A stretch of DNA of 64,000 nt from Limibacter armeniacum (lineage in GTDB: Bacteria; Bacteroidota; Bacteroidia; Cytophagales; Flammeovirgaceae), in NCBI RefSeq assembly GCF_036880985.1, contig NZ_JBAJNO010000008.1, forward strand, positions 2,778,656 through 2,842,655, given 5' to 3'. The notes under the pieces were generated by a model. That model had not been told where the DNA came from, searched no databases, and saw nothing but the letters and a program-made list of their open reading frames with translations. Shown here piece by piece: positions 43,680 to 61,492 of this stretch (position 1 is the stretch's first letter; each line of letters begins with the position of its first letter). Position numbers and translations under genes: made by a program.

Positions 43680-44271
43680 CGAGTATCATTTTCATTTCTT
43701 CCCTACTTACTTCCATTTCCTCCATTGCATCAACCACCATTTGATGTTTTTGCTTAGGAAGGCTGGAAAGGTCCTCAAAGTCAATATCGATTACCTCACC
43801 ATTTGAAATTAGCTGGATCAAGTATTGATGTGTTGGCAAATCAGGTACAGCACCGTCAGCCTGTTCAAGCCTTGAGAGCTTAATCATCTGCTCATTGGCT
43901 CGGAGCATAAACTCTACATCCTTTGCTTTAGCCGCTATCCTGAAAGCATCCATGGCCAATTCATAATGAATAGCCCTTAGACCTTCCTTCTCAGCTATAT
44001 TCAAATTTCCATAAAGCCTATATGCTGCCTTGCAGTCCTTGTATGCCTGACTTTCACAGATACCGAACTCATCCATTAAGGAGATTACTACATTGGATTT
44101 TTTCTGTCCAGACAATAACATCGACCATGCAGCACGTATCCGGATTGAAGCAGCCTGTTCTTTGGCGCTCAATTCTACAGACTCATCAATGCTGTTGGCT
44201 TTGATCCTGTCCAACAGGTTGCCTTTATCATTCAGCAGTTTTTTGTAGTAACCTCCTAATTTTCTTTTCAC
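43654..44271 (-). CDS. Putative terminase small subunit
   Basis: The 205-residue helical protein contains RAAWSMLLSGQKKSNVVISL followed by ICESQAYKDCKAAYRLYGNL, an HTH-like region, and overlaps TerL by 26 bp. Position and DNA-binding appearance support a TerS function. The acidic C-terminus (DGKEKEEE) may contact TerL. Confidence 0.75.
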   Translation of the reverse strand: MKRKLGGYYKKLLNDKGNLLDRIKANSIDESVELSAKEQAASIRIRAAWSMLLSGQKKSNVVISLMDEFGICESQAYKDCKAAYRLYGNLNIAEKEGLRAIHYELAMDAFRIAAKAKDVEFMLRANEQMIKLSRLEQADGAVPDLPTHQYLIQLISNGEVIDIDFEDLSSLPKQKHQMVVDAMEEMEVSREEMKMILDGKEKEEE

Positions 44272-45008
44272 GCGATGGATGCTTTCAGTTCAGCAAGGGT
44301 ATCTTCCCACTTCTCAACTAAATGGGCCTTGCTATCATCTTTTCTGTATTTGCTAATCATCTTCTGAGCATGCACGATTTTCTTTTTAACCTCTTCCTGC
44401 TCTTCCTCAGATAGAGTTGTAGGCTCAGGCGTTGGCACTACCTTTTCCCCGTTCTTGGCTGCATCAAGTTTGTTATGCACTTCAGGAAGTATCTTGATAG
44501 CAATCTCCTTGCACCTGAGAGCGGCTTCCTTTCGTTCCTCGATATGAGTCTGAGCGTTTAGCTTGTTATGGAACAGGAAATTGAACTCATCATACAAAGC
44601 CCTTCTTTCCTTGTACAGCGGTTCCAAGCTTGCCTCATCCACCCGGTCATCAGGTTCGGTCAGCTCGGTTAAGCCTTCCTTGAAATCAACTTCCTCAGCT
44701 TCCTGCTCAGCTGGAGCTTCAGTATCTTCAGCTTCCTGCTCTGCTGTAGTTTCTTCAGCAGCTTCAAGTTTAATAGGCTGGTTTTCCTGCTTTACCTTTT
44801 CTTCCTGAGCCTTTTTACTGTTTGTGTCCTGCTCATACTTCAGGTACATGTACTTCAGTACAGAGTTAAGCTTCCGGACATTGTAGTCTGTCTTTCCTCT
44901 TTGGAATAGGGCTACAAGGTTACGGTTCTTGCCGTACTTCAGGTATAGTCTGACACCCGCCTCATAGGAGGGTGTCTTTTGTTCCAAATACTTTTTGATG
45001 TCTTTCAT
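44268..45008 (-). CDS. Acidic phage protein of unknown function
   Basis: The 246-residue protein starts with a basic domain (YEAGVRLYLKYGKNRNLVAL). A disordered acidic stretch follows (residues about 80-130: repeated AEEE, AEQEAED), then a helical C-terminus. Proteins of this shape occur beside terminases in Bacteroidota phages. The function is unknown. It overlaps TerS by 4 bp and its upstream neighbour by 1 bp. Confidence 0.7.
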   Translation of the reverse strand: MKDIKKYLEQKTPSYEAGVRLYLKYGKNRNLVALFQRGKTDYNVRKLNSVLKYMYLKYEQDTNSKKAQEEKVKQENQPIKLEAAEETTAEQEAEDTEAPAEQEAEEVDFKEGLTELTEPDDRVDEASLEPLYKERRALYDEFNFLFHNKLNAQTHIEERKEAALRCKEIAIKILPEVHNKLDAAKNGEKVVPTPEPTTLSEEEQEEVKKKIVHAQKMISKYRKDDSKAHLVEKWEDTLAELKASIA

Positions 45009-45580
45009 TATACGCCAGGAGTGATTACGCCCGTGAATGGATCTTGCACGCTGTCATCAGACAACTTTACAGTACCCATAAAAATAGGTGCAGGACCTTT
45101 TCGAGCTGATTGGAAATTGAATGTATTACCTCTTCGATCTGCTGAAGCAGCACCAGTTGTAGCAACTCCACCAGATACACGCTTGGCCGGATAGCCACGA
45201 TGTCCAAGCATACGTGTTTGGCCATCCATTTCACGCACAAGGATAATGAAGTTGCCATTCTGCGTGTACTGGTCAAAACCAAGCATTTCCCCTTTGGAAC
45301 CCGGATGCAAAAACTCTATGGAGTTCAATTTTGACATGCCGTCAAACTCACCCTGAGATTCCCCATCAAGCTTCAATGTCTCAATGGTTCCATAGACACG
45401 CGTGAACCCTACAGTATTGGCGAATACAATATCTCCCGTGATCGTCACCAAATCTGACAGCAGGTTATCTACATAAGCAGGTTCGTCAGATACAGGAACA
45501 GGAAGCGTTACAATATCTTCAAGTTTGGCAATGGCAAGGATCTGTTCCAGTCCCCAGGGTTTGGCTCGCCATCGTTCCAT
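45008..45580 (-). CDS. Capsid-associated or tail-tube-like phage protein
   Basis: I place the start at 45580 (MERWRAKPWGLEQI), because the upstream ATG (45649) falls inside a strong hairpin. The 190-residue product is beta-rich, with VTLPVPVSDEPAYVDNLLS and GNTFNFQSARKGPAPIFMG. It follows the major capsid gene. A decoration, stabiliser or tail role is possible. Not identified by family. Confidence 0.65.
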   Translation of the reverse strand: MERWRAKPWGLEQILAIAKLEDIVTLPVPVSDEPAYVDNLLSDLVTITGDIVFANTVGFTRVYGTIETLKLDGESQGEFDGMSKLNSIEFLHPGSKGEMLGFDQYTQNGNFIILVREMDGQTRMLGHRGYPAKRVSGGVATTGAASADRRGNTFNFQSARKGPAPIFMGTVKLSDDSVQDPFTGVITPGV

Positions 45581-45628
45581 AAAACATCTTCTAACATGAT
45601 TGATATGATTTGTAAGAAGTGAGAGAAT

Positions 45629-45663
45629 AGGTCTGATTGGCGTTATCAATCAGACCTTTATTG
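45629..45663. terminator. Attenuator-like hairpin after the capsid gene
   Basis: AGGTCTGATTG and its exact complement CAATCAGACCT enclose a 7-nt loop. It lies just past the capsid stop codon in the minus direction. T runs are weak, so partial read-through is likely, leaving the capsid transcript more abundant than downstream genes. Confidence 0.65.
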
Positions 45664-45664
45664 G

Positions 45665-46651
45665 TTAGGCTTGGTCGTTGATCCAAACCGCATCTAGGGT
45701 GGCAAACTGAACACCAAAGGCAAGCGCAAGGAAGATGGCCAACGTTTTAGGGTTGGTCTTCATTACCTCGATTTTCTCCTGGTCAGATTCACCGTCAATA
45801 CCCACACACATATTCCATTCAGGAGAAATGATCACACGTTGAGAGGTACCCATTCCAGCCAAAGGAACAATCTCACACATACCCGCTGAGCCTTCCAAGT
45901 AGGTTTGCTCATACTTGGTATTGTATGGATTTGCACCAGTCTCGGCTTTGTAATCGTCACAATATTTATCGTAAACATTGTAACTCATGTACATCTTAAC
46001 AGGTCTGCTTCTGAAGGCATCGTCAATTTGACGGTACATGTCTTTAAGCTTCGTTAGTGCATCCGCTGAAGTGATTGCACCTGTAGCAATGACGTTACCT
46101 CTTGTAAGGTCAAAACCTTCTGTTGCATCACCAGCATTGTCTATCGCTGATTGCGCGCCAATGGCAAGCTCATCCGTGATGATCTTAAAGAAGCCATTAT
46201 TCACATCCACCGCATCGGTACCAGCACTGTTATAGATGCCATTAAACAGGACATCCATATTCAGTTCATGACCTACAGTAGCGAGAATCTGCTCAAAAAA
46301 TTCTTTCTCAAAAGGATGGTCACTTGCATCGACACCCTTTTTCATAAGCATGGCTAACCATGACTTACGGTATTCCAATGGGTTTTCTTCCAAGTTGACC
46401 TCACCAATCTGTACCTGCAAGGTCCTTGGCTTGATGGCACCCACATTGGCTTTTTTAGACCAATCCTTACCGTAAGGTTTTAGGAGCTTTTCAAGTTGCA
46501 GCGTGGAAAGAACATAACGGTCCTTGATTCCTGGCAAGACATTAAAGTGATTGAAAATGTCATCCATGGAAGTGGTGGGGATGGTAATCAGCTCTCGCTG
46601 AAATTCCTCACAGTATTGCTGTAATGCTTCAATATTAATAGCGTCAGGCAT
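45665..46651 (-). CDS. Major capsid protein
   Basis: This 328-residue protein has an HK97-like outline: N-terminal helix (INIEALQQYCEEFQRELITI), a spine/P-domain part with MDVLFNGIYNSAGTDAVDV, and a C-terminal RVIISPEWNMCVGIDGES followed by a hydrophobic LAIFLALAFGVQFATL segment. It follows the S49 protease/scaffold gene, as MCP genes do. It is expected to assemble the head. Confidence 0.88.
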   Translation of the reverse strand: MPDAINIEALQQYCEEFQRELITIPTTSMDDIFNHFNVLPGIKDRYVLSTLQLEKLLKPYGKDWSKKANVGAIKPRTLQVQIGEVNLEENPLEYRKSWLAMLMKKGVDASDHPFEKEFFEQILATVGHELNMDVLFNGIYNSAGTDAVDVNNGFFKIITDELAIGAQSAIDNAGDATEGFDLTRGNVIATGAITSADALTKLKDMYRQIDDAFRSRPVKMYMSYNVYDKYCDDYKAETGANPYNTKYEQTYLEGSAGMCEIVPLAGMGTSQRVIISPEWNMCVGIDGESDQEKIEVMKTNPKTLAIFLALAFGVQFATLDAVWINDQA

Positions 46652-46678
46652 TTCTATGAAATGTTAGAAGGTGAAGGA

Positions 46679-47071
46679 TTATTTTCTCATTCTGGCGATA
46701 CGCTCCTGTCTTTGTTTTCCGACAGTAGAAAAGTGAGCGGCTTCAGCGTCAGTAGATGGGCTGCTGTCGTTGTCGCTATTGCCAGTAGCTGGTTGCGTAC
46801 TGCTTGCGGACGGACTCTTTTCCAGCTCCTGGATACGAGCCTCAAGCGTAGCTATATTTTCGTTAGCTGCTGAAAGATCAGAGTTGGCTGTTTCCAAATT
46901 GGCATTGGCAGTTTCAAGCTGCGTTTGTACCGCTTCTGATGCAGCCAAAGACTGCTCGATGGTATCCATCTGTTCGTTGTTAAGCACAACGCCCTCTTCT
47001 GTAGCGTCAAGCTCAGTAGCGTTTAAAGCTGCAAAAGTGCGTGCCCATTTGTTGGTGGTGATATTTGACAT
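46679..47071 (-). CDS. Internal-start scaffold protein (same frame as the protease)
   Basis: An in-frame ATG at 47071 begins MSNITTNKWARTFAALNATE, exactly where the protease domain ends and the coiled coil begins. A separate 130-residue product ending RMRK is likely, as in lambda C/Nu3. An A-rich stretch precedes the ATG; Bacteroidota lack strong ribosome-binding sequences, so this is not decisive. Confidence 0.5.
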   Translation of the reverse strand: MSNITTNKWARTFAALNATELDATEEGVVLNNEQMDTIEQSLAASEAVQTQLETANANLETANSDLSAANENIATLEARIQELEKSPSASSTQPATGNSDNDSSPSTDAEAAHFSTVGKQRQERIARMRK

Positions 47072-47959
47072 TTTGGTATTGGTCTTTTTTGAAGAATTTG
47101 ATTTATCTGTAAGTGCGGATAACCTTTTGAGTGCAAAGTTTTCATCTCCAATGGCATCGATCAGACCAACTTCCAATGCTTCGCTGCTGGTGAAAATGGC
47201 TCCTTTGAACAAGGTCTTATGATTTAGCTTCAACTTTCCACGTCGGTTTTTCTTGATACCGTTCACAAAGGCATTGTTAAGTGGGTTCAGGATTTTTTGC
47301 TTATATGGTTCAGTGTTACCTTCCATCAATGCCCTGTACTCACTGTTTTTTTCTGAGGCATCATCAGCGTAAATACTATTGAACTTTACGCCCAAACTTT
47401 CCCAATACTCACGGTCATCTACATAATTCATCATTGCACCAATAGAGCCGATCAGGTTGGTATCATGTGAGCTAATAATCTCATCTGCTGCACTGGCAAT
47501 CCACATAGCAGCAGAAGCGGCCATTCCATCACTGACAAAAGCAGCAACAGGTTTACGGGTATTTCGGATTGTATCTACCAATGTTTGTGTACCATCAGCC
47601 TGACCACCTGGAGAGTCAATATCCAACAGGATAGCGTCAATATCCGGATCATTATCAAAGGCAATAATTTGTTTTGATTTGGTAATGGTCCCCTCAGGGC
47701 CACACTGTTGGTCATTCTTCATGACAACACCATGGATCTTGACAACCCCGAATCTTCTCTGCTTACTTACTCCACTGGAGGCAACAGTATAATTCATCGT
47801 GTTGGAGCGGTGCGCTTCCCGAAGCTGAGCAAGGTCTTTTCCTTCCCAGAAACTACGTCCGGACAATATGGAGTTGATCAGTGGTACAAATCCTTTGACA
47901 GAGTCTTGATTAATAGCCCAGACGCTATTAAGTATGGTAGAAATAAGTGCTGTATTCAT
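46679..47959 (-). CDS. S49 (SppA-like) phage head protease fused to scaffold
   Basis: The N-terminal two-thirds carry an S49 signal-peptide-peptidase-like fold: LLDIDSPGGQADG and FVSDGMAASAAMWIASAAD with the catalytic Ser, then TNLIGSIGAMMN. Residues from about 297 onward are coiled-coil (QTQLETANANLETANSDL) and disordered, which is scaffold-like. It precedes the major capsid gene. Prohead proteases cut the scaffold and capsid during maturation. An in-frame internal start may give free scaffold. Confidence 0.9.
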   Translation of the reverse strand: MNTALISTILNSVWAINQDSVKGFVPLINSILSGRSFWEGKDLAQLREAHRSNTMNYTVASSGVSKQRRFGVVKIHGVVMKNDQQCGPEGTITKSKQIIAFDNDPDIDAILLDIDSPGGQADGTQTLVDTIRNTRKPVAAFVSDGMAASAAMWIASAADEIISSHDTNLIGSIGAMMNYVDDREYWESLGVKFNSIYADDASEKNSEYRALMEGNTEPYKQKILNPLNNAFVNGIKKNRRGKLKLNHKTLFKGAIFTSSEALEVGLIDAIGDENFALKRLSALTDKSNSSKKTNTKMSNITTNKWARTFAALNATELDATEEGVVLNNEQMDTIEQSLAASEAVQTQLETANANLETANSDLSAANENIATLEARIQELEKSPSASSTQPATGNSDNDSSPSTDAEAAHFSTVGKQRQERIARMRK

Positions 47960-48048
47960 TGCGCTTCAGTTCGGTGATTCGATTTTGAAGCAATAACAGG
48001 ATAGGAGATGTTTTCCCGTAGGACAAAAAGTTGTTCAATAGAAAGGTG

Positions 48049-48077
48049 AAAAAGCCTCCCGGTGATGGGAGGCTTTC
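48049..48077 (-). terminator. Terminator after the 944-residue phage protein
   Basis: On the minus strand, AAAGCCTCCC pairs with GGGAGGCTTT around a 6-nt loop and is followed by TTTTTC. It partially isolates the large protein from the capsid genes. Confidence 0.82.
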
Positions 48078-48080
48078 TTG

Positions 48081-50915
48081 TTATATAGTGGCCAGTGTTG
48101 TTCCACTTACATTCTTGACAGTAAAGGTACCGCCACTGTTTTTGATTACGGTAAAGTCATCGGCAACAACATCGCTGGTATCTGCTACCGTTATTTCCAA
48201 ATCCCCTTCCGTAATGATATAGTTTGCATTGGAGTTCCCATCATCGTTATAGCGGGACACCCACTGACAACCCGACCAATCCAAGACACCACTCATACCA
48301 TTTCCCCTGTAGTTGAGTCTTCTCAGTTCTCCATTCACATTAAGCATGTTCCTTATTTTACCCTCTATATTGAAAAAGAAATTGTAACTCCTGAAGCCGA
48401 ACTCGACATTGGCAAAATCATAATCAAAGTTATCAGGCATGGAGTCCATATTCCTGAACAGGATCTGAGACCTTACTGAGTAACTACCTGCCTTGAATGG
48501 TGTTACGCCAGTCACCAATGGCAATTCAAAAAGATAGAGGTACCCATTACCAAACTCGTTATGTATCCTGACGTTTGACAGGTCCAGTACCCCTGTAAGG
48601 TTAGGCAAATAAGAAATCACAAAGTCACCTTTACCCAAGTTGGTAGTGTTAGAGAATAGCAAAGTATCACAAGCCATTTGCGACAGGCTAAACTGAGGGT
48701 ATCCAGTATCCGAAGGATCACTGATATCCACATCAAAATCAAGCCCACTAAAGTCAGCCGTACCAACTGTATTACCAATGGTTGCCAGTAATGGATTGTT
48801 GGATACAATACATACACCATTGTTGTTTTGGTACCCACCTGCATAGGTAGTTTGTATTGATTTCACCTTCTCCAGTAATGGGTGGTTGTTGATTCTCAGC
48901 TCTATAGTACGATCATCTGTGTAATTGATAGGCATATCAATCTCCTGCAATATATCATTGTCCCTTGCATAGAACCTTACCAGTGCTGTATCTGCAAATG
49001 AGATCCTTTCCAGTTTAGGATTGTACCATAACCTGAAATAGGCATTGCCCTGAAGTACAGATAACTTTGAGTCACTACCGTCTATCAGGCGTAAATTCGC
49101 ATTATTGTTGGCTATAAACTGTCTTCCGCCATTTACCTCATCTCCAATAATTGACTCCTTGAAGATGATTTCCTCCAGATTTGTTTGATCATTGATAGTG
49201 AAAAAGTCTCCAAACCTTGCATACAATGCTTTAAATGTCCCCTTGATGGCATCATTGCCAAATTCTGAATTGTTGATGCTTATATCCTGATAGTTATTAG
49301 GATCATCATTTACACTGGCTACCGCCAATACCATCATATCACCATCATCATTAATAGCATATCGGGTAATACTGCTTGATGCCCCTTGGTCGCTTTGATA
49401 TCCGCTATCCTTTTCAAAAAAGACATTGGCACATTGCAGCCTTTCCCGCAGTGGGTTTTTCAGTACCTGCTCTATATAGTTGTCATCCCCAAAGAAGCTC
49501 AGGTAAAACCAGTGGCTCCATAGCTTGATGGTCATCTGACTGCCAGCTTCCTGCAACAGCTCATTGAACACGTCCAGATAGACAGCTGCAATACGGTTAA
49601 GTGAAAGGTCATAGGTGGCTGTAGAAGCATTTGCCGCATCAGTAAAATCTACATTATAGATGCTTAGCTTTTTCATATCAAGCTCTATCAGGCTATCAGG
49701 TTCCGTATGGTAAAATTCCACAATCGATCCCTCCAAACCATAGTACGATTCCATACCAGTGGCATTGATAAACACATTGTTGTATGGTCCCCGGACAATG
49801 ATCAGCCCTTCTCCTGAATTCTGAGAAAAACGGTTACGCAGATCAAAATACCCTTTCTTCATCTTCACTTTCACAAGGCCAAAAGTAGCGGTCGTAAATG
49901 TCCAGCCTTCCCCGTTGCCGTCAAAGTTCTCTCCGCCCAGCTTTTCCATCAGGTCAATACATGATTGGTCTGGTTCCTCTCCAGGAATAAGCGGAAACCC
50001 TTGTGCTGAAGACTCAAACCCAAACTCATCTACCAGTACGCCAATCTTAAAGGTACGTCCTGTAAAGGTCTGATTACTGCCAATGTTATCGACCTGTTCC
50101 AGTATTGACAAAAGCTTATCCTTTTGGAGTATGGCATTGGTAACATCTACCGTAACATCTTGCTGCTTAATCCAATCACCCAAAGTCAGGTTCAGGTTAT
50201 TGGCATTCTTCAAACATAAGTAAACAAGGTTGGTCCATCCGGCATCGCTCAGGTCTACATCACCCGAAATCAGTGCATCACAAAACTGAAATCCTGATAC
50301 GGAGCTTTTACCATCTTCCAAATACAGATAGGAAAGTCCTGCATCCGGATCATGTACCCATTCATAATTGTTGGTGCCCTGTACCAGTAGTGCTTCAGGG
50401 TTGCCACTCTCTACAATAAGGTCTGGTATCTTGACTTCTGTTTCGGTGGCTCCCTCATAGAATGGAATATCACAAGCTGACTGATAACGGCAAGATAGGC
50501 GGTACCCGTTTTTGTCAGCAGTTTGAGCGCCTGATCCGTCATCATAGGTGATCCGGGCTGGAAGCTCCTTGGTGCCAACGGCTCTTACGTCTCCGTTCTG
50601 ATACTCACAAAGCAGGATCAACTCTTTCCCTATTATCTCGCTTAGCTCGGTGGTTACAATCTCCCGCACCTTTGGGAGCTGGAAAGAAAGTGCCGTATCA
50701 AAGTATTCTCCCTGGCTACTTTGGTTTTCCTTAACTGTCAGTGAGCCGCTTTCCTGCGTGAAGTAGATTTCCTTCCACACCTTGGTAGGATACAGCTCTA
50801 TATCACCATCCAGCTTGGCACCTATTTGTTCGGGAAAGGAGGCTATTTCCTCTTCCAGTACGTACTGGATCTTGGCCAGTCCGCCAATATTGGTTTGTCC
50901 TGAGTAGGTTGTCAT
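48081..50915 (-). CDS. Giant phage protein: tail-tube-like N-terminus with LRR-like extension
   Basis: The N-terminal ~155 residues have beta-rich tail-tube-like features, including SSQGEYFDTALSFQLPKVRE and a DKNGYRLSCRYQSACDIPFY segment recalling a widespread Bacteroidota phage tube protein. The remaining ~790 residues carry leucine-rich-repeat-like units (NANLRLIDGSDSKL, LRINNHPLLEKVKSI, VISYLPNLTGVLDLSNVRI). The protein ends SGTTLATI. The architecture suggests a surface-binding fibre or decoration. The gene lies upstream of the protease-capsid genes, not in the tail module. No enzymatic motif. Confidence 0.65.
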   Translation of the reverse strand: MTTYSGQTNIGGLAKIQYVLEEEIASFPEQIGAKLDGDIELYPTKVWKEIYFTQESGSLTVKENQSSQGEYFDTALSFQLPKVREIVTTELSEIIGKELILLCEYQNGDVRAVGTKELPARITYDDGSGAQTADKNGYRLSCRYQSACDIPFYEGATETEVKIPDLIVESGNPEALLVQGTNNYEWVHDPDAGLSYLYLEDGKSSVSGFQFCDALISGDVDLSDAGWTNLVYLCLKNANNLNLTLGDWIKQQDVTVDVTNAILQKDKLLSILEQVDNIGSNQTFTGRTFKIGVLVDEFGFESSAQGFPLIPGEEPDQSCIDLMEKLGGENFDGNGEGWTFTTATFGLVKVKMKKGYFDLRNRFSQNSGEGLIIVRGPYNNVFINATGMESYYGLEGSIVEFYHTEPDSLIELDMKKLSIYNVDFTDAANASTATYDLSLNRIAAVYLDVFNELLQEAGSQMTIKLWSHWFYLSFFGDDNYIEQVLKNPLRERLQCANVFFEKDSGYQSDQGASSSITRYAINDDGDMMVLAVASVNDDPNNYQDISINNSEFGNDAIKGTFKALYARFGDFFTINDQTNLEEIIFKESIIGDEVNGGRQFIANNNANLRLIDGSDSKLSVLQGNAYFRLWYNPKLERISFADTALVRFYARDNDILQEIDMPINYTDDRTIELRINNHPLLEKVKSIQTTYAGGYQNNNGVCIVSNNPLLATIGNTVGTADFSGLDFDVDISDPSDTGYPQFSLSQMACDTLLFSNTTNLGKGDFVISYLPNLTGVLDLSNVRIHNEFGNGYLYLFELPLVTGVTPFKAGSYSVRSQILFRNMDSMPDNFDYDFANVEFGFRSYNFFFNIEGKIRNMLNVNGELRRLNYRGNGMSGVLDWSGCQWVSRYNDDGNSNANYIITEGDLEITVADTSDVVADDFTVIKNSGGTFTVKNVSGTTLATI

Positions 50916-50926
50916 GTTGTTATCAA

Positions 50927-51388
50927 TTAGAAAAGTATATCATCATTTGTATTGGTGGCGAGAAAATGATCCAGCTCTTTTTTGTGGTTTGAGCGTTGCC
51001 AAGTCTTGTAGGCTGTTTCACGCTGGAGGTCATCTTCAGAGATTTGGTGAAGCTCCAAAAACTCACTGATGATCAAAAGCACATTATGGCCATGGTTACG
51101 CTTGGCATTGTAGAGCACAAAGTCCAGCATTTCTTTGCAAAACCATTCCTTGATCAGTCGTTGGAGGCGGTACCGTCTGGATAGTGTAGGGTTGTGCATC
51201 AGTACATGCACACGGTTGTACTTCTCTGCTTGCTCCAGCATATGGAGCATACGTTTACGGTCAGGTCCTTTCTGACCGATACATAAATTAGGATTGATGC
51301 GAAGCCGTTTCTGCTTGTTGCGCTTCTTCAAAAACTTGTACAGGTAATTATCCAGCAAAAGTACTGTAGGGCTTAACCTCATTGACAT
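50927..51388 (-). CDS. First gene of the late operon, unknown function
   Basis: The 153-residue basic protein begins MSMRLSPTVLLLDNYLYKFL and contains a KKRNKQKRLRINPN basic segment and a helical C-terminus. It lies 11 bp before the large protein. DNA- or RNA-binding is possible from its charge. It could be a late activator or a structural component. Duplicated promoter-like elements lie about 70-130 bp upstream. Confidence 0.6.
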   Translation of the reverse strand: MSMRLSPTVLLLDNYLYKFLKKRNKQKRLRINPNLCIGQKGPDRKRMLHMLEQAEKYNRVHVLMHNPTLSRRYRLQRLIKEWFCKEMLDFVLYNAKRNHGHNVLLIISEFLELHQISEDDLQRETAYKTWQRSNHKKELDHFLATNTNDDILF

Positions 51389-51459
51389 AGGTCATGGATT
51401 TGATTTCCACAAAAAAATAAGCTGGATAATGGGTAGTGTAAGAGGGGTTGATTGGGATA

Positions 51460-51523
51460 TACATTTGTCCGTTATAGACCTTTCTAATAGGACAAATGTA
51501 CATAAAATAGGACAAATGTACAT
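51460..51523. promoter_or_regulatory. Repeated GGACAAATGTACAT elements upstream of the late operon
   Basis: ATAGGACAAATGTACAT occurs twice (51487-51503 and 51507-51523), 20 bp apart, and TACATTTGTCC (51460-51470) is the same motif inverted. On the minus strand the two direct copies contain TACATTTG, an exact TAnnTTTG promoter -7 box. They lie about 70-135 bp upstream of the late operon start at 51388. They are likely late-promoter elements or operators for a phage activator. Confidence 0.6.
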
Positions 51524-51625
51524 GGTCAAAATCTTGGATATGTCAGATTTTGTACTATTCCCATAATTCTGACCAAATACGAAATTTCAGTGATTTAGTG
51601 GCTCCGTGGAGAGTTGGGAAAAAGT

Positions 51626-52052
51626 GTTGATTTTGTTGATTTGTTGATAGTCTATGTTAAGTGTTAGTTTATCAATGAGTTATAAGATCAACATTTTTGG
51701 TAAATCTGATCAACAGCATGTTGTTTGTTGATCGGTTTTTGACCCTTTTTGGTGTGTTTTGTTAAAATACTTTAAAAAACCTGACTAATTCTCTCCTTAG
51801 CTGATCAACACTTTTGTTGATTATCAACATTTTTAAAAATTTTGTTGATTGTGTAAGTTATTGATAGTTAGTTTTTTATATACCATTATCAACAAATCAA
51901 CAAAATCAACACTATTTTCAACTTCGCTGAGTTTTACTGAGAACTAAATCTTTAGTTATTGTATTATCCCTATTTTTTTTTCGATTCGTTTTTTTTCAGG
52001 CATAAAAAAGCCTTTGGGAATCCAAAGGCTGTTGATCTGTTGTTTTGTTGAT
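51626..52052. repeat. GTTGAT/ATCAAC iteron-like array
   Basis: Thirteen copies of the hexamer occur in 285 bp: GTTGAT at 51626, 51635, 51643, 51727, 51816 and 51844, and ATCAAC at 51687, 51709, 51804, 51823, 51888, 51896 and 51905. Two more GTTGAT copies lie at 52031 and 52047. Flanks often extend to TTGTTGAT. A palindromic pair TGTTGAT/ATCAACA spans 51815-51829. The 666-bp region 51,389-52,054 has no gene and is AT-rich. A phage replication origin or partition-type site is suggested. Confidence 0.75.
52004..52030 (-). terminator. Terminator of the early operon
   Basis: On the minus strand, AGCCTTTGG and CCAAAGGCT pair around GATT-like loop and are followed by TTTTTT. It ends the early transcript 25 bp past the last gene. 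Confidence 0.85.
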
Positions 52053-52054
52053 AA

Positions 52055-52252
52055 TCAATCCAGACTATCCAATGCATATTCTTCCTGCCATTTATAAGAT
52101 TTTCCTGCAACCGTATCTTTTATGTCTTTATTGAAGTCGATAATAGCCGGGAGTAGGAGCAGCACCATCACACATATCAGACAGATAAAACCAATAATGG
52201 CGGTGTAATTAATATTTCTTTCCATCATAAACAGGTTTAGTTGTCCATACAT
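52055..52252 (-). CDS. Small membrane protein, last gene of the early operon
   Basis: This 65-residue protein overlaps the upstream gene by 16 bp. It has one strongly hydrophobic segment (IIGFICLICVMVLLLLPAII) and an acidic cytoplasmic tail ending YALDSLD. Alternative starts at the second or third methionine (MMERN) are possible. Function is unknown. Confidence 0.6.
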   Translation of the reverse strand: MYGQLNLFMMERNINYTAIIGFICLICVMVLLLLPAIIDFNKDIKDTVAGKSYKWQEEYALDSLD

Positions 52253-52914
52253 TTAGGGCACGTCTTACCATCCACGTATAGTTTGTCTTCACAATACCAA
52301 CATTGCATGGTTTTTTTTGGTCTATCAACTGGTCTAGTTCGATTAAATGCCAATCTCCATCCTGCATGAAGAAACAAGTCCACGCCTTTGTAGTTGGCCA
52401 CTTGCATAATTGCGGCTAACGCTGCACCTGCCTGATATTCTCGTGTTGTTCCTGGTCCTTCCGGATCAAGTGCTAGTACCTTTTTTTCGGCATATACCAG
52501 GGCATGTTCTATACTTTTGAATGTAGGTTGTTTTCCTGCCAGGTTCTTTTCATACACATAGCCAATGGTACTGATCATTAGCTTCCCTTCATTGTTGCTA
52601 ATCCAATCACAAATCCAAAGAAAAGAACTTGCTAATTTATCCTCAAAAGTGTCTTTGATAAAGATTGGGTAAAATGTCTGAATATGGAAGTTGAACGTTT
52701 CTGGATTTACAAAATTCACAAGAGTTAAACTGTTAATGTAATGTTTGATATATGCTTTTTTGTTGAGGTTTGCAGCTTCAGCTGCTTTTCCCAGGTCAGA
52801 GCTTGCCCTTAGTATATTGTGATATTGACAATGTTCTTCTTCTTTAAAGTCTTTTGATTTTACTCTGATATAGGCATTGTGTATAAACTGAGTAAGCCGA
52901 GTTGATTTTGCCAT
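52237..52914 (-). CDS. Phage early protein with C-terminal zinc ribbon
   Basis: The 225-residue protein begins MAKSTRLTQFIHNAYIRVKS. Its C-terminus has two CxxC pairs (CWYCEDKLYVDGKTCPKC), a zinc-ribbon. The middle region is helical and aromatic. DNA- or RNA-binding is plausible. No family recognised. Confidence 0.65.
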   Translation of the reverse strand: MAKSTRLTQFIHNAYIRVKSKDFKEEEHCQYHNILRASSDLGKAAEAANLNKKAYIKHYINSLTLVNFVNPETFNFHIQTFYPIFIKDTFEDKLASSFLWICDWISNNEGKLMISTIGYVYEKNLAGKQPTFKSIEHALVYAEKKVLALDPEGPGTTREYQAGAALAAIMQVANYKGVDLFLHAGWRLAFNRTRPVDRPKKTMQCWYCEDKLYVDGKTCPKCMDN

Positions 52915-52932
52915 TGATTTTTGTAGTTAAAA

Positions 52933-52957
52933 TGGGAGGGGTGAGAAGTCCCTCCCG
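52933..52957. terminator. Hairpin between two early genes
   Basis: GGGAGGG and CCCTCCC pair around an 11-nt loop, followed on the minus strand by ATTTTAAC. It may attenuate the early transcript. Confidence 0.55.
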
Positions 52958-52978
52958 TTAGGTGAAAAATGCACGAGT

Positions 52979-53140
52979 TTATTCAGAATCATCATCATCA
53001 CTGTCATAGTAATAATCGTCATCATCATCATCGTATGACCATATATTTTGACTTCCTTTCTTCTTGTCTAATAAGCTTCCCAGTAGTGAGACGAAAGCCA
53101 AGACAATAAAGTAGAGTAGCATTACTTTTATAAGGGCCAT
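52979..53140 (-). CDS. Short membrane protein with aspartate-rich tail
   Basis: The frame from ATG at 53140 to TAA at 52979 encodes 53 residues: a hydrophobic segment (VMLLYFIVLAFVSLLGSLL) followed by DDDDDDYYYDSDDDDSE. It fits tightly between two other genes. The 9-codon tract of aspartates at the end is striking. Function unknown. Confidence 0.55.
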   Translation of the reverse strand: MALIKVMLLYFIVLAFVSLLGSLLDKKKGSQNIWSYDDDDDDYYYDSDDDDSE

Positions 53141-53158
53141 GGTTTTAGGGGTTATTGA

Positions 53159-53497
53159 TTAATAATAAGATGTGGGAGTCCCTGATCCATCTCTTTGATC
53201 ACGTTTAAACTCAGCATTGACTTTTGCTTCTATAGCTTCATCCATATCATAAAAAACACCAACCTCTTTATAGTAATGAGTATGACCTTTTGGCTTTTTC
53301 ATAAGCTTTATGATATTATTTTCGAAGATTTCAAGTTTGAATTTTTCTTGATCGATATGGTTTCTTATTTCTCGATGATGTTTTTTAGACTCTTTTAGTT
53401 TTTTAGCATCATCTATATTTAGAAAAATGACCAAGGCTATCAACATGAAAAGAAAGCCTAACTCAATGCTTAGAATTATTCCATTAGAACTACTCAT
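53159..53497 (-). CDS. Single-pass membrane protein
   Basis: I prefer the start at 53497 (MSSSNGIILSIELGFL), which overlaps the upstream stop by 8 bp. The longer frame (53593) has no leader sense. The 112-residue product has a hydrophobic N-terminus (LSIELGFLFMLIALVIFL) and a charged tail. Unknown function. Confidence 0.6.
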   Translation of the reverse strand: MSSSNGIILSIELGFLFMLIALVIFLNIDDAKKLKESKKHHREIRNHIDQEKFKLEIFENNIIKLMKKPKGHTHYYKEVGVFYDMDEAIEAKVNAEFKRDQRDGSGTPTSYY

Positions 53498-53984
53498 TAT
53501 TATTAATGAAAAGGTGTTTGTACTCAGTGAATGTGATTTCTTTACAGTCTTTTGGAGGGTCAAACTTAAATGTATCGCTGACCATAAAACCATAGTATTT
53601 TTTATTTCTAAATGAGTATCCTATATGATTAGGAAAGCCTTTATAACCGACGCATTGATTCAGCTCTTTTCTACCTATTAGAAGACATTCATCCATTTCT
53701 TTTTGTATCGTCTTACCTAATTTGGTGTTCAGTTTTGGCATCCATTCATGACTAGAATTATAGACGTTCTTCCAAACCTTGGTATCCACCTCAACATCCT
53801 TATCAAAGGTTACAGAGGAAAAACCTCCTTGAGCTGCAAAGTCATCAGGACGGTAATGTTTAATGTTGTACTTAAAACAGAAATCAATTTGATCATCATA
53901 AGCTTGTTCCATTCTTCTTTCCAGTTCCTGAAACTTCTTACCTGTCTCGGTTTTCTTTTCTGTGATATAATAAATCGTTGCCAT
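53490..53984 (-). CDS. Unknown phage early protein
   Basis: The 164-residue soluble protein begins MATIYYITEKKTETGKKFQE, with a VDTKVWKNVYNSSHEWMPKL aromatic segment and a helical C-terminus. It is part of a tightly packed operon (2-bp gap upstream, 8-bp overlap downstream). I recognise no family. Confidence 0.65.
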   Translation of the reverse strand: MATIYYITEKKTETGKKFQELERRMEQAYDDQIDFCFKYNIKHYRPDDFAAQGGFSSVTFDKDVEVDTKVWKNVYNSSHEWMPKLNTKLGKTIQKEMDECLLIGRKELNQCVGYKGFPNHIGYSFRNKKYYGFMVSDTFKFDPPKDCKEITFTEYKHLFINNNE

Positions 53985-53986
53985 GG

Positions 53987-54583
53987 TTATACTTCGGGTT
54001 CAAGTTCTACAATGATGTTATTGTCCATATAGCGTCTGACGCTTTTGATCTGCTCAGGAAGGTCTAAGCTGATTTTTTGCATCATGCGAGAGAAAGTGGA
54101 AAGTCCCAGACCTGCATTTGAAATGTCCTGCTTCATCTGCTTTTCCATCTTGCGTTTAGCTTGTCTATTGATTGCTCGTTTGATTCGTTTTTCCCATTCT
54201 TCTTTGGTTATGGCTCGGGCATTTTGAAACATCACGTTTTTGTATTCCTCAAAATAGCTGCTGGCCACTGATACCATAAGTCTGAAGTGATACTCATCGC
54301 TGCCGGAAAGCGATTCGACGTATGGGAATATCTCATCGGTCTTTTTGTCCAGCAGGTCAAACTCAGGGCTGTTAGGCATTTCATACAGCGTGATAAAGCT
54401 TTCGGCTTTCCTCTCGAAGTTTTTGTACTTGAGCTTCATTGCTTGGTTGCCACTGGCAAAGCTGCGGTAATAAGCCAGCGCGATATATAAGGCTGTCTCG
54501 AAGCGGTGAACCTTGTTGATTATTGCTTCGGTTACACCTTCAGGTTTTTTGAACTTAGGTTCGTAATAGTCTAGGATATGCAT
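53987..54583 (-). CDS. Unknown helical phage early protein
   Basis: The 198-residue protein begins MHILDYYEPKFKKPEGVTEA. It is alpha-helical and basic near residues 130-150 (EKRIKRAINRQAKRKMEKQM), which suggests nucleic-acid contact. It overlaps its upstream neighbour by 1 bp. Function is not known. Confidence 0.65.
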   Translation of the reverse strand: MHILDYYEPKFKKPEGVTEAIINKVHRFETALYIALAYYRSFASGNQAMKLKYKNFERKAESFITLYEMPNSPEFDLLDKKTDEIFPYVESLSGSDEYHFRLMVSVASSYFEEYKNVMFQNARAITKEEWEKRIKRAINRQAKRKMEKQMKQDISNAGLGLSTFSRMMQKISLDLPEQIKSVRRYMDNNIIVELEPEV

Positions 54584-54960
54584 CAGAATAAGTTTAGTTG
54601 GTTAGGATCTTTTTTCTCATGTTTCGTCAATGGCTCAAATGCTTTGCATGTATCGTTTAGGTTTTGAGCAATGCCCATCATTTCAGCCACTTCAATGGGG
54701 ATAGTATCCTGGTAAAAGATGATTTCAAGTGCCAGTTTCCCGATACACTCCTGACCTGTTTTCACCAGTTGGATACTCTCTTTCAGCAATGGCAGCTCAT
54801 ATTTCGGGTGGTGAGCTGATAGGCATTTTCGGCATTTCAGACAGTTCTGATCTTTCCATTCCGTTACCTGCCAAGCATGGTCAAATGGGTTGATGGTATC
54901 TGTCCGTTTATGCCCTTCAGCCAGTTGCTGTATATGGTTGAGGTTTTTGTTTAGGTCCAT
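54583..54960 (-). CDS. Zinc-binding phage protein with C-terminal sliding-clamp motif
   Basis: The 125-residue protein has a CLKCRKC zinc-knuckle (about residues 40-46) followed by HH, and ends DPNQLNLF. QLNLF matches the QL(S/D)LF-type motif that binds the beta sliding clamp, and in clamp-binding proteins it often lies at the very C-terminus. The gene is next to the helicase in the replication module. It probably recruits host DnaN to phage DNA, or interferes with it. Confidence 0.75.
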   Translation of the reverse strand: MDLNKNLNHIQQLAEGHKRTDTINPFDHAWQVTEWKDQNCLKCRKCLSAHHPKYELPLLKESIQLVKTGQECIGKLALEIIFYQDTIPIEVAEMMGIAQNLNDTCKAFEPLTKHEKKDPNQLNLF

Positions 54961-55286
54961 GCTACTCCTTCTTTGTTTAGATAGCTGATAATGTTTCTTA
55001 TCCTCATATATTCCTGGTGCATCAGCTGGTATTCCAGTTGCTTATCCTCATATACTTTTGGATCGGTTTCTCCCATCATCTGAGCAAGTCTGATTTGTTC
55101 AGATTTCTTTGACTTTTGATCCTGTAACATATCATGGTACCAGTTCAAGCAATCACTGAAGCAGTCGAAGTCTGGCTTTAATTCATCCGGATAATTATTG
55201 AGTTTACCTAGGTTGGCTCTGTACTCCAGTGCTGCTTTTGTAGCCTTGAATATTAGTTCGAGGTCTTCACTTTGAATCGTTATCAT
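54951..55286 (-). CDS. Small phage early protein
   Basis: The 111-residue protein begins MITIQSEDLELIFKATKAAL and is helical. It overlaps the clamp-motif gene by 10 bp and lies 1 bp after the helicase. It is probably part of the replication module, but no family is recognised. Confidence 0.65.
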   Translation of the reverse strand: MITIQSEDLELIFKATKAALEYRANLGKLNNYPDELKPDFDCFSDCLNWYHDMLQDQKSKKSEQIRLAQMMGETDPKVYEDKQLEYQLMHQEYMRIRNIISYLNKEGVAWT

Positions 55287-55287
55287 A

Positions 55288-57687
55288 TTAGAAAGGAGGT
55301 TTAAATTGAATCTTGTCGTAATTGTCTGAGATCACTACTGTTCTGTCTTTCTCGCTCCAGTCGTGAAAGCTCTGTATATGCTTGCGCCATTGATCCTGTT
55401 TGATTGGGTTATCTACCTTTCGGTTAAACCTTTCCATCAAGTCTTCCATTTCTATCCACCTGCTGTTAATTGGCTGAGCTTTGAGGTATTCAAATACCAG
55501 GTCTTCAGCGTTGCCGTTCAGGTGAATTTTGGCGGTTTCAACCAAGTAGTTTTCCTCATCAATGTTCAGGTCGTCGATTGTCTTACCCTTGATTCTTTCA
55601 AATTCTTCAGGTGTTAACCAATCTTCAGCTTGAAGCTCGTAATAGCGGTTTTTGGGAATCCTGTACTCGCTGGTGTTCTTGATTTTCTCTCTGTAATAGA
55701 TGTACTGAAGGTTGCCTTTATGGTCTTTTTCCACATCCAAAGGGATGTAGATAAATGACACACTTGTACTTAGGGTTTTGTATCCTTTTTCTGCAAACAC
55801 TCGCTTGATGTCATCAGGGCTGTACTTAAACTTGGCGGTGTCTTTCATCAGGTCACAAAGTACCTTTGGGTGTATCCTGACCGTTTGCACATTGAAGTTG
55901 AGGAAAAGGTCTCTCATAAAGGTTTCGACCTCTTTCATGGCCATTGGCTTTGAATGCTTGATCACATTGAAAAACTCTTCCGTTTGAATGTGCTTTACAT
56001 TGAACCAAAGACGGCCCATCTTCATTTCGGCAATGCTGTTGTTTCGGGCATTGGGGTTTACATGGTGGATAGGAGTCTGGACTAACATGCTCAGGAATGC
56101 AGGGACTTCTTCCTTCATCATCTGCAGCATGTTTGGTTTTGTCTCTTGTAGTACTGGCGGTTTCAGCATAAAGAAACGGTCCTCATCATCAGAGTCAATC
56201 TTCATGATATTATCCTCATGGTTTGAGGTGGCTATGAAGTGAGCAAAGTTGGATACTTCAGACTTGATCACACCTTTTGGTTCCATCAATCTTGTGTGTC
56301 CTGTGATCAAATCCTTTAGCATGTTCATCGCCTGGTCTCTTTCACTTTCTACCTTAATTTCTTCCAGACCTATATATGTCTTGTAAGCGTTGTGTGAGTT
56401 GAACCTGCCTAACAGGTCGTTGATATCAGTAACCATGGCATTGGCTCCAAAGATGTATCGCATCAGGTTGAGTAAGGTTGACTTACCTGTTCCACGCTCG
56501 CGGCTCATCAGGATGACCATAGGGAGTCTGGCTTTTGGATAGCGATAGGCAATCCGGAACCAGTCAAGCAATACCGTTAATCTGTCTCCCAATATTGGTG
56601 CATCCCATTCCGCATTCCCTTGTGAGATATGGTGGAAATAGCTTAGGATATTGGGACATGCTTCTGCTGCTTCTTCAGCAGTTTTGAAATTGCCAGGATA
56701 AACATTCAGCGGTTCGTAGACATTGTAATAGTCAAACTCCAACCTGCCTTTGCTGGTGGTAAACCTCCGTTGGTAGTTCTTGGTGTTGTCCGGCTCAAGC
56801 GCCAGCCCATCATAAGCGGGGATGTCTTTGATAAAATCCGCTCCATATTTCCTTTTTACCGATTCGTAGGAAGTTGGCTGCATGCCTCGTACAAACAGGT
56901 CAGCATTTTCGCCCAAATACTGGACTGACATCAGTACAATCTTATCCAAGATTTGAATATACTTGTCTGCATCTACGTGCTTGATCTTTTTGATCTCACC
57001 CCTGATCAGTTGGTAAATGCAAGACTTATAGATAAACTCAGACTTGTCAATATCTCCAAACCTGTTATAGATATTATAGAAGTCTTGTACCGTGTGATCC
57101 TGAAAGTCGATACCAAAGTAGCGGTACAGGTGTTCCATTTCTCCATCAGCCAGCTTGACATGATCAAACCATTTGTTTTCATGTTCGCTGCTTAGGGATT
57201 TAATGATTTCTTCTTCGTGATCCGGAAATTCGAACAGCATCCTATCCAGTGTTCGGGCTTGCTGCCAGTAGTCCGCCTTGATTACTTTCAGTACGATTCT
57301 TTTGGTTGCAATACCTTTCCGTTTGGTTAGGTAGTTAAAAGCCTTGTGGAATGACTTGATCTGTTTTGTCAAACCTGCGGGCTTTTTATAGAGGTCTTTG
57401 TTTGGGTGGTATTTGTTGACTCTTGTATCAGATGGGTAGAGTATTGTCAGTACTTCAGGAGTTAGTTTGTCCAGGATATCGGTCAGCTCTTTTACTGGCT
57501 CCATTGAATCGTAATTGAACAAGTCGTAAAACTTTTGAACCAATACGATGTCATCCCCTTGTAAACTTCCTTCAATTCCTTCGGTTTCTGACCCTAGCAC
57601 AATGATTACATTTTTGGAAAGGTTCTTTCCATCCATGGTCATCTTAGCTTCAATTGCCTGTGAAAAAAGTATCGTTGAGGTATTCAT
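55288..57687 (-). CDS. Phage primase-helicase, superfamily 3 (D5-like)
   Basis: The SF3 helicase core is clear: Walker A SRERGTGKSTLLNLM at about residue 395, Walker B region KTYIGLEEIKVES at about 438 and motif C AHFIATSNHED at about 485, followed by DEDRFFML. About 330 residues precede it, which may act as a primase or origin-binding domain. Its 799 residues fit D5-like phage replication proteins. It is the likely initiator or helicase at the iteron-like array at 51.6 kb. Confidence 0.9.
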   Translation of the reverse strand: MNTSTILFSQAIEAKMTMDGKNLSKNVIIVLGSETEGIEGSLQGDDIVLVQKFYDLFNYDSMEPVKELTDILDKLTPEVLTILYPSDTRVNKYHPNKDLYKKPAGLTKQIKSFHKAFNYLTKRKGIATKRIVLKVIKADYWQQARTLDRMLFEFPDHEEEIIKSLSSEHENKWFDHVKLADGEMEHLYRYFGIDFQDHTVQDFYNIYNRFGDIDKSEFIYKSCIYQLIRGEIKKIKHVDADKYIQILDKIVLMSVQYLGENADLFVRGMQPTSYESVKRKYGADFIKDIPAYDGLALEPDNTKNYQRRFTTSKGRLEFDYYNVYEPLNVYPGNFKTAEEAAEACPNILSYFHHISQGNAEWDAPILGDRLTVLLDWFRIAYRYPKARLPMVILMSRERGTGKSTLLNLMRYIFGANAMVTDINDLLGRFNSHNAYKTYIGLEEIKVESERDQAMNMLKDLITGHTRLMEPKGVIKSEVSNFAHFIATSNHEDNIMKIDSDDEDRFFMLKPPVLQETKPNMLQMMKEEVPAFLSMLVQTPIHHVNPNARNNSIAEMKMGRLWFNVKHIQTEEFFNVIKHSKPMAMKEVETFMRDLFLNFNVQTVRIHPKVLCDLMKDTAKFKYSPDDIKRVFAEKGYKTLSTSVSFIYIPLDVEKDHKGNLQYIYYREKIKNTSEYRIPKNRYYELQAEDWLTPEEFERIKGKTIDDLNIDEENYLVETAKIHLNGNAEDLVFEYLKAQPINSRWIEMEDLMERFNRKVDNPIKQDQWRKHIQSFHDWSEKDRTVVISDNYDKIQFKPPF

Positions 57688-58193
57688 AATATTTTACTGA
57701 TTGCGTCTTCTGCGGTTAATGTCTTTTCTGTTTCCTCGTAGGGAATTTCTTCTTCCATAAATCTGATCAGGGCATAGAGCCTTACAATGCTTCGGCTCTT
57801 TGCTTGGATCGTGTCTTGGTCTGTCTCCTGCTGGATGGCAAACCAAAACTTGAACATCATCACCTTAAACTCTGCTATGCGGTGCTTATCGATCAGGTCG
57901 GATGACTCTAGCATATGCGCTGATTCCATGCGTCCTTTTTCCAATTGCACTTTCATTGAATTGCGGCTAACGAAAGCGTTGTGCCGCTGTACCAAGTCCT
58001 GTTTTACACCATTATAAATGGAGGTGGTGGTTTGCATGATCTTCTTATAGAAGGTCAGCTCTTCGGTGATATACTTGCGGCTCTTCTCGTTGCACCAACT
58101 TTGCTGTAGTGTCCATTCCTTTTTTTGGATGGCCTTTTGCAGGTCGTTGGTCAGGAACTGGAAGTGCTTCTGATGTGTGGGTGTTGCGCTCAT
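57684..58193 (-). CDS. Coiled-coil phage early protein
   Basis: The 169-residue protein is helical, beginning MSATPTHQKHFQFLTNDLQK. It ends with acidic EEEIPYEETEKTLTAEDAIS. It overlaps the helicase gene by 4 bp, so it may be a helicase loader or partner. No motif confirms this. Confidence 0.65.
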   Translation of the reverse strand: MSATPTHQKHFQFLTNDLQKAIQKKEWTLQQSWCNEKSRKYITEELTFYKKIMQTTTSIYNGVKQDLVQRHNAFVSRNSMKVQLEKGRMESAHMLESSDLIDKHRIAEFKVMMFKFWFAIQQETDQDTIQAKSRSIVRLYALIRFMEEEIPYEETEKTLTAEDAISKIL

Positions 58194-58250
58194 CTGTTAT
58201 CCTCCTTTTTTATCCCAAATTGGTGTCCAGCTATTCAATCAGGTAGGACA

Positions 58251-58946
58251 TTATTCTGCTTCCTGTTCCCTTCTTTTTTGCTGACCTTTCAGCGCATTTA
58301 AGCGATTTTGAGCGGATCGGTATTTGGTGTTAAGCTCTTCCTTTTGCTCGTTCAGTTCGCTGATCTGCTCCCGCTGGATGGCCAGTGTTCGGTCTGCATC
58401 TTCCAAGTTTTCTTCCAGTTCGGCTACCTTGTTTTTGAAGTCATTCAAGCGACTGTTGAGCGAAGTATTAGCGGATTGTAGCGACTGTTCTGACTCGCCC
58501 ATATTGTTGAGCTGTCGTCTCATTTCGGAGTTGGCTTTTTCCTGCTCGATACATGACTGGTGTATTTCGTTGTAGCGAGACTTGAGCGACGTGTGAGCGG
58601 ATTTCTCCAACTTCAAATCCTGTTCGAGCGAGTCTTTTTCAGCCTTCAGGTTTCGCTCTGAGTTCGCTACCGAAACAGCGATTTGTTGTGCCTCTTCGAG
58701 AGCGGTTTTGAGCGAATCCACTTGTTTTTGATAGTCTGAGACTATTTCAAGCTTGTTTTTAAGGGTGTTGTAAGTGGCCTTCAGAAGGGTAGTGGCGATA
58801 TACGCCACTGCCGAAAATGTGAAAGCTATTGTGTTGTCCAGCTCAAAGGCTTGCTTTACTACCTGACCAGCCAAAATGACCACTGCCATGGTGAATAGAA
58901 AGCGGAACATCGTACTGGTGCGAAGGATATATTCTAGTGTTTTCAT
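58251..58946 (-). CDS. Membrane-anchored coiled-coil protein
   Basis: Two hydrophobic segments at the N-terminus (FRFLFTMAVVILAGQVV and IAFTFSAVAYIATTLLKA) are followed by a long coiled coil (residues about 65-225) with regular heptads. It overlaps its upstream membrane-protein gene by 4 bp. The pair could form a complex at the membrane and act in superinfection exclusion or DNA positioning. Function is not known. Confidence 0.7.
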   Translation of the reverse strand: MKTLEYILRTSTMFRFLFTMAVVILAGQVVKQAFELDNTIAFTFSAVAYIATTLLKATYNTLKNKLEIVSDYQKQVDSLKTALEEAQQIAVSVANSERNLKAEKDSLEQDLKLEKSAHTSLKSRYNEIHQSCIEQEKANSEMRRQLNNMGESEQSLQSANTSLNSRLNDFKNKVAELEENLEDADRTLAIQREQISELNEQKEELNTKYRSAQNRLNALKGQQKRREQEAE

Positions 58947-59560
58947 GCCTGTCTATTGATTTTGGATTTCAAGATTTCAAACTGTGAATTGGTGGATGCT
59001 TCCGGTACCTTTTTGGGTGTTGGTTCGGTCGCTTCCGGTTCGCTCTCTTGTCGCTTGTACTTGCTCATCATTTGCTCAAAGTTTTCTTTCTCCACTCGCT
59101 TGGCTAGCTCGTGGCTGGCGATCATAATAAAGAGTGAAGGGAAGAAACCGAGCACCCCAATTCCGAAGATTAGCAGCTCATTGATTTGCTCGCTGTACAA
59201 AATGGCGTGGTAACTGGCGATGGATAAGCAGCCGCTGACAAACGCTGAAAAGTAGCTGCTCTTTTGCATGCCGTTGATGGCGAAAAAGAAGGAACCCGCC
59301 TCGATAACCAGACCTGCACAAAGTCCCAAAAGGATGGAAAGTGTGTGCATCAGCATAGAGCTGTTATCCATTCCCATGGCTTCCAGTTGTGAACTGATTT
59401 TGCTCTCGAAAATGGAGGCAAAAAAGATGGCGATGCTTATAGCCTGGACAAATGCCATTAGGCCGATCATCAGCGCAAAGCCACTTGTTTGACGGAGCAT
59501 AAAGAGTAGTAGGTCCGTTCTGTTCTTTAGTTCGAATACCCAGTGTGTTTTATGCTTCAT
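58943..59560 (-). CDS. Four-helix membrane protein of the early operon
   Basis: The 205-residue protein has four hydrophobic segments (ALMIGLMAFVQAISIAIFFA, MHTLSILLGLCAGLVIEAG, a YFSAFVSGCLSIASYHAIL stretch and LLIFGIGVLGFFPSLFIM). A soluble, E/P-rich C-terminus follows. A DUF-type channel-like layout is visible, but no family. It is co-translated with the following coiled-coil membrane protein. Confidence 0.7.
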   Translation of the reverse strand: MKHKTHWVFELKNRTDLLLFMLRQTSGFALMIGLMAFVQAISIAIFFASIFESKISSQLEAMGMDNSSMLMHTLSILLGLCAGLVIEAGSFFFAINGMQKSSYFSAFVSGCLSIASYHAILYSEQINELLIFGIGVLGFFPSLFIMIASHELAKRVEKENFEQMMSKYKRQESEPEATEPTPKKVPEASTNSQFEILKSKINRQA

Positions 59561-60047: not shown

Positions 60048-60063
60048 TCGAAATTTTAGTTTA

Positions 60064-60103
60064 AAAGGCTGCATCAGGCGTTAAGTGATGTGGCCTTTTT
60101 TTG
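60064..60103. terminator. Terminator-like hairpin after the DUF2528-like gene
   Basis: AAAAGGCTGCATCA and TGATGTGGCCTTTT form an imperfect stem with T runs on both strands, 13 bp past the stop codon on the minus strand. Confidence 0.65.
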
Positions 60104-60116
60104 TTTATGGATTTAA

Positions 60117-60470: not shown

Positions 60471-60474
60471 GGCT

Positions 60475-60915: not shown

Positions 60916-60919
60916 CGTT

Positions 60920-61342: not shown

Positions 61343-61492
61343 TTGACCCCTCTGTTTAACCCATTATCAATCAAAAATTTTATGCCTTAAATGGAGCAGG
61401 ACATTCGCCCCGCTCCGTGTTTCCGATTACCTTGAAATTGTGTAATTTAATAGCGCTTAAACCTTATTTTTCACCACAAAAACAGATAACCT

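Follow-up and report, generated by a model that had tools for sequence, protein, structure and literature searches.

Among initiators of the superfamily 3 (SF3) helicases, the P4 alpha protein works with short iterons in a phage satellite; these lie in two separate regions (ori1 and crr), both of which are needed. Plasmid iteron origins of the Rep_3/RepA type consist of direct repeats, each about 20 bp long and all pointing the same way. Here we describe a cluster of the heptamer TGTTGAT in a prophage of Limibacter armeniacum (order Cytophagales), located in a 64,000-nucleotide stretch of contig NZ_JBAJNO010000008.1 (positions 2,778,656 to 2,842,655; "the window"). A single cluster of this word was found in the prophage, whereas P4 has two separated iteron regions (the comparison with P4 is one of layout, not of sequence), and its sites are 7-mers in both orientations with irregular spacing, unlike the plasmid repeats. 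We regard the array as the replication origin of the prophage, with a probability of about 0.84, and predict that it is bound by the prophage's own SF3 helicase (DUF5906).

The closest described systems are the rep-ori modules of the Staphylococcus aureus pathogenicity islands (SaPIs) and phage-inducible chromosomal islands (PICIs). In the parts of the reports on which we draw, SaPI Rep has its iteron origin immediately 3' of rep and recognises it through the C-terminal domain, and the putative origin of Cch2 is bound by the isolated C-terminal domain of that helicase (PMC7581432); an AT-rich region with two sets of iterons about it, located after rep, is described together with a plasmid test (PMC6092414); and DUF5906 genes of PICIs occur together with mapped origins (PMC10111431). 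The prophage shares with these modules a cluster of short iterons (15 exact 7-mers in 428 bp) and an SF3/D5-like initiator helicase. It differs in that the array is not immediately 3' of the initiator gene (3.2 kb here; within 1.5 kb in 66 of 96 relatives) and in that the satellites are without head genes, whereas a match to a head-maturation protease (phrog_53) and a presumed capsid gene are present here. In addition, the element is in Bacteroidota and the 13 main sites are mirror-symmetric. The main array falls into groups of 6 and 7 sites, but the gap between them is not AT-richer, and its likeness to two iteron sets about an AT-rich region is uncertain. The array layout is that of the SaPI/PICI modules and is best read as a variant of them, because it is found in a phage-sized prophage, 3.2 kb from the helicase gene and at the boundary of early and late genes.

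Other systems show partial likeness. Cch2 of the staphylococcal cassette chromosome mec is a helicase whose isolated C-terminal domain binds a putative origin (PMC7581432), as is predicted here, but it has three 5-nt iterons (AAGTG) rather than 15 seven-letter sites in both orientations. The polymerase-helicase of NrS-1 is the closest solved structure by profile and fold; its recognition sequence of 8 nt, however, is present in two copies, and the passages available from that report describe no array (PMC7102993). In PLE of Vibrio cholerae the DNA-binding domain of the initiator RepA covaries with the origin (PMC8263062, in the part used here), although RepA is a RepA_N initiator and the origin has three repeats of about 30 bp. 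Nothing relevant on comparable arrays in elements of Bacteroidetes/Bacteroidota turned up in the papers searched, and this argues only weakly that none has been described.

The TGTTGAT array

The array and the helicase have the following features.

51619..51917, no strand: main array of 13 TGTTGAT sites, predicted origin, framed by 31-nt inverted arms
51619-51649 and 51887-51917: inverted arms of the main array, 31 nt each, 97% complementary
51625+, 51634+, 51642+, 51687-, 51709-, 51726+, 51804-: first bases of sites 1-7
51815+, 51823-, 51843+, 51888-, 51896-, 51905-: first bases of sites 8-13
51733..51803, no strand: longest site-free internal stretch, 67% AT, splitting the main array into 6 + 7 sites
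52030..52052, plus strand: two outlying TGTTGAT sites (starts 52030 and 52046), adjoining the end of the early operon
55288..57687, minus strand: SF3 helicase, DUF5906, 799 aa, predicted initiator
55696..55944, minus strand: predicted C-terminal winged-helix-like domain (helicase residues 582-664), proposed reader of TGTTGAT

An earlier note on this DNA had counted 13 hexamers GTTGAT/ATCAAC in 285 bp and two flanking copies. A recount gave the same numbers, with the 13 in 51626-51910 and the two at 52031 and 52047. A T precedes all 15 hexamers, and the repeat unit is therefore the exact 7-mer TGTTGAT. Its 15 copies in the 666-bp gap 51389-52054 fall within 428 bp, 13 in 51625-51911 and two outlying; dinucleotide shuffles of the gap (2000) contain on average 0.35 copies and at most 3. 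Among all 6- and 7-mers in the 35.2-kb prophage (low-complexity words excluded), the cluster ranks first, with a log10 p of -24.6. Across the 8.04-Mb assembly, 28 of the 37 close same-strand pairs of TGTTGAT fall in four contig-end copies of the array.

The spacings between successive sites are 9, 8, 45, 22, 17, 78, 11, 8, 20, 45, 8 and 9, followed by 125 and 16 to the outlying sites. The array is nearly mirror-symmetric, with 9-8-45 at one end and 45-8-9 at the other and the three outermost sites of one side facing those of the other; the earlier note does not mention this symmetry. Mirrored pairs hold 10 of the 13 main sites (the two outlying sites were excluded), whereas 200 rearranged arrays have 4.9 on average (p 0.005, the lowest value that the test can give). 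Perfect inverted repeats reach 27 nt, compared with 13 or less in 30 shuffles. The 71-bp central stretch (70 of 71 bases measured) is 67% AT, against 72% and 78% in the flanking halves. GC skew gave no clear origin signal.

Arrays beside related helicases

The 390 genomes of the order were searched with the helicase and the presumed capsid protein, which gave matches in 40 and 52 genomes, respectively. Eighteen stretches, not all of the matches, were fetched. Clusters with other words are present in 11 of the 17 regions scanned, the window's prophage aside: TGTAACA-type words (G350, G216, G146, G296, G366), TGTAACC (G012), TGTAACT (G027, G351), TGTAGGA (G070), TGTCAGA (G043, contig C4) and a one-sided cluster (G001). 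The scanned regions of G370, G303, G043 (C3), G025, G181 and G173 have no cluster. Single-sequence searches with the helicase gave no confirmed locus in genome or viral contigs and otherwise only distant phage matches, so that an alignment-based search was needed; a search for homologous proteins gave three, the window's own among them. The alignment-based search added the best 80 of 89 genome loci and 42 viral contigs. The resulting 152 helicase loci and the window (153 proteins) were reduced to 99 by collapsing loci at least 80% alike (29 on viral contigs, 57 on genome contigs, 12 that came from searching the order, plus the window), of which 96 had at least 700 bases downstream and were used for the downstream count.

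Of these 96 non-redundant loci, 66 have an array in the 1.5 kb that follow the helicase gene (both strands occupied; p < 1e-8). Such arrays occur in 4 of 89 upstream regions and in 8 of 505 distal tiles, and 288 shuffles gave none. The comparison strongly supports one of the three proposals of the earlier note, an iteron origin for the SF3 helicase. A stricter rule applied to all 99 loci gives 60 with an array within 1.5 kb, 11 with a displaced array (the window among these) and 28 with none; the search for displaced arrays extended to 8.5 kb downstream, and at the distal-tile rate about 3 of the 11 may be due to chance. The same note had named absence of the cluster from related phages as evidence against its reading; the relatives share the array, near or displaced, but not the identical hexamer. 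Among 71 arrays (a weak 5-site cluster, L102, was removed from 72), the word contains TGT in 53, TGA in 14 and neither in 4. Mirror symmetry is not a rule of the family: once four of the 72 arrays had been dropped for having fewer than 6 sites, 7 of the remaining 68, including that of the window, reached p < 0.05. Nor is an AT-richer centre a rule, as the largest gap is AT-richer in 37 of 71 arrays.

The carriers include phages, small integrase-helicase elements and a relaxase-bearing element. The latter (L136:5013-13722, Dyadobacter) encodes an integrase, a helix-turn-helix (HTH) protein, a DUF5906 helicase, a TOPRIM protein and a MobA-type relaxase, with the array between the helicase and TOPRIM genes; it resembles a mobilizable element that has a predicted origin of its own. 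An organisation comparable to the rep-ori modules thus extends, in another phylum, to phage-sized prophages and to an element with a relaxase. Arrays are also kept by three phages in which DUF5906 has no match (L087, L090, L094); the replication genes of L087 and L090 match phrog_22657 and DNA primase families, and L094 has a phrog_28855 protein. L095 and L096 carry arrays, and of the window's proteins only the integrase and the helicase matched there. These small elements have a second both-strand cluster, GGAATCC (18 copies, L096:12869-13165) and GATTCC (9 copies, L095:12160-12324). In L107, two neighbouring arrays with different words (TGTTACT, 1305-1479; TGTAATC, 2580-2748) follow one helicase gene, and in L201 and L219 the clusters, of TGTAAAC and TGTAAAA, precede the helicase gene by 270-280 bp rather than following it.

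Proposed recognition by the helicase and alternative readings

Across the 71 arrays, four of which fit neither helicase length class, the word tracks the predicted C-terminal winged-helix domain of the helicase and not the ATPase core; shared ancestry is not removed from this comparison. Together with the structural model, the link suggests, indirectly, that the helicase reads TGTTGAT through its C-terminal winged-helix-like domain rather than through the N-terminus, which the earlier note had put forward as a possible binder. The nearest solved structure to the helicase, by sequence profile and by fold, is the helicase region of NrS-1, and there is also a fold match to SaPI5. P4 alpha is absent from the fold match lists, which excludes nothing, and a Foldseek search with the C-terminal domain alone gave no match at E 0.001 or better. 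The seven long helicases that were aligned have -F as their last residue, in six cases as part of -PF. Such a C-terminal ending recalls the tail of single-strand binding protein. TOPRIM-like motifs (VEGE-type and DAD-type) at the N-terminus are shared by six relatives. They are not recognisable in the window's helicase, whose primase function may therefore be lost.

The direct basis for regarding the array as an origin is the sites and their symmetry, the recurrence of arrays beside helicase relatives and the statistical link between word and C-terminal domain. The array is the likely site at which the helicase begins to copy the DNA because, in dozens of related mobile elements, genes for this kind of helicase have comparable word clusters next to them. 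We infer that the helicase would bind the TGTTGAT sites by its predicted C-terminal winged-helix domain, and that the bound helicase would melt the duplex there and initiate replication. Two opposed helicase hexamers may be able to assemble on the mirrored array halves and to leave in both directions. The origin would be silent while the early genes, including that of the helicase, are repressed. If this is true, an origin is predicted for many Bacteroidota phages and elements, and the 71 pairs of helicase domain and DNA word would be a source for working out the recognition code.

The main alternative concerns the gene on the late side of the array.

50927..51388, minus strand: gp153, first gene past the array on the late side, without Pfam or PHROG match; many related phages have a family member close to the array

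gp153 belongs to a conserved family whose members are often first after the array; the window's member and three related ones have no Pfam or PHROG match. After 16 copies or duplicates of 56 loci were left out, 40 gp153 loci remained (these retain the near-identical pairs L081/L110, L082/L101, L121/L194 and L174/L211, and L076 has no upstream sequence). In 29 of the 40, the window included, an array lies within 2.5 kb upstream of gp153, which, against the case for the helicase as reader, points to a possible link to late genes. Displaced arrays are also usually next to gp153, which is present in 8 of 10 displaced long-helicase loci. The array could chiefly serve to switch late transcription, with gp153 or some other early protein as its reader, its nearness to replication genes being incidental. 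We consider this improbable. No gp153 match is found in 48 of the 60 near-array loci, some of which are short stretches; summing the long (19) and short (28) helicase classes gives 47. Four gp153-bearing stretches (L086, L092, L093, L097) with neither an SF3 match nor another array-bearing replication gene have no array; in L097 a match to a DnaD-like or O-like initiator takes the place of SF3. In L189, L191, L192, L197 and L216 the array remains at the helicase while gp153 is kilobases away. gp153 was considered as the main binder, as arrays often precede it, and was set aside because arrays and gp153 dissociate in both directions. The multi-site switch suggested in the earlier note keeps some probability, because in phages gp153, the first late gene, often follows the array closely. 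A dual-purpose array, at which the bound helicase would fire replication and also gate the late operon, with late genes turned on only after origin firing, has a small chance of being correct. The family would then be a portable replicon of Bacteroidota phages, small integrase-helicase elements and mobilizable elements, its word rewritten as the C-terminal domain of the helicase changes, and the recognition code of that domain would be readable from sequence alone.

The relationship to NrS-1 raises the question of whether the sites are single-strand primase start sites, as proposed for its 8-nt sequence, rather than duplex initiator sites. The polymerase of NrS-1 recognises TTTGGTTA at the start of DNA synthesis (PMC8718748, in the passages used), and TOPRIM-like N-terminal motifs are found in most long relatives of the helicase. 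However, these motifs are not recognisable in the window's helicase, short helicases of about 400 aa without the N-terminal part retain arrays, and in the genome of NrS-1 the recognition site occurs only twice (PMC7102993); we regard primase sites as very unlikely. Likewise very unlikely is a role in partition (also raised in the earlier note; no search aimed at partition genes was made), in recombination or in transfer (a parS-like site, a transposon end or oriT) that is unrelated to the start of replication. In favour of such a role, the inverted arms are similar to transposon ends and a relaxase is found in one relative, L136. Against it, the array is about 23 kb and about 12 kb away from the two limits of the prophage, a tyrosine integrase is encoded there, and arrays recur beside the helicase gene across different element types. 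A transposon end or att site was rejected because the array is internal to the prophage.

The prophage and the gap

The array lies between two leftward gene runs (52055-62654 and 30839-51388), which are separated by the gap 51389-52054. The surrounding features are as follows.

28511..63732 (~35.2 kb), no strand: prophage carrying the array; the limits are those of the stretch shared by two copies
52009..52030, minus strand: terminator-like hairpin and T run, end of the leftward early operon (consensus match only)

Two terminator-like hairpins were found in the stretch, compared with 0.3 expected. The sole open reading frame of at least 50 aa within the gap is a TTG frame of 55 aa (51348-51515), which overlaps gp153. 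The genes of the prophage include those for the tyrosine integrase, an HTH regulator and the DUF5906 SF3 helicase, besides the phrog_53 match. The presumed capsid gene (45665-46651) is assigned from its position and matches phrog_11320 (function unknown).

The window reaches the contig end, and the stretch 28511-63732 is shared with three other contig ends, which suggests that the prophage is present twice in the host genome, at two contig junctions. The copies, compared at the G000 contig ends of C8 and C9, are identical in the interior (28641-63545); the outer 130-190 bp differ, and the prophage ends are approximate. The differing ends resemble a host repeat family, and integration into host repeats is possible. 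Directly before the integrase gene, the region 28763-28840 has five copies of GGTAACA in a single orientation (28763, 28775, 28801, 28813 and 28834), possibly integrase arm sites.

The Bacteroidota -7 promoter box is TAnnTTTG. Between the array and gp153, the region 51457-51523 contains an 18-nt sequence (AATAGGACAAATGTACAT) twice as a direct repeat, together with a 14-nt copy in inverted orientation, and TACATTTG on its minus strand resembles this box. The region is a possible late promoter region.
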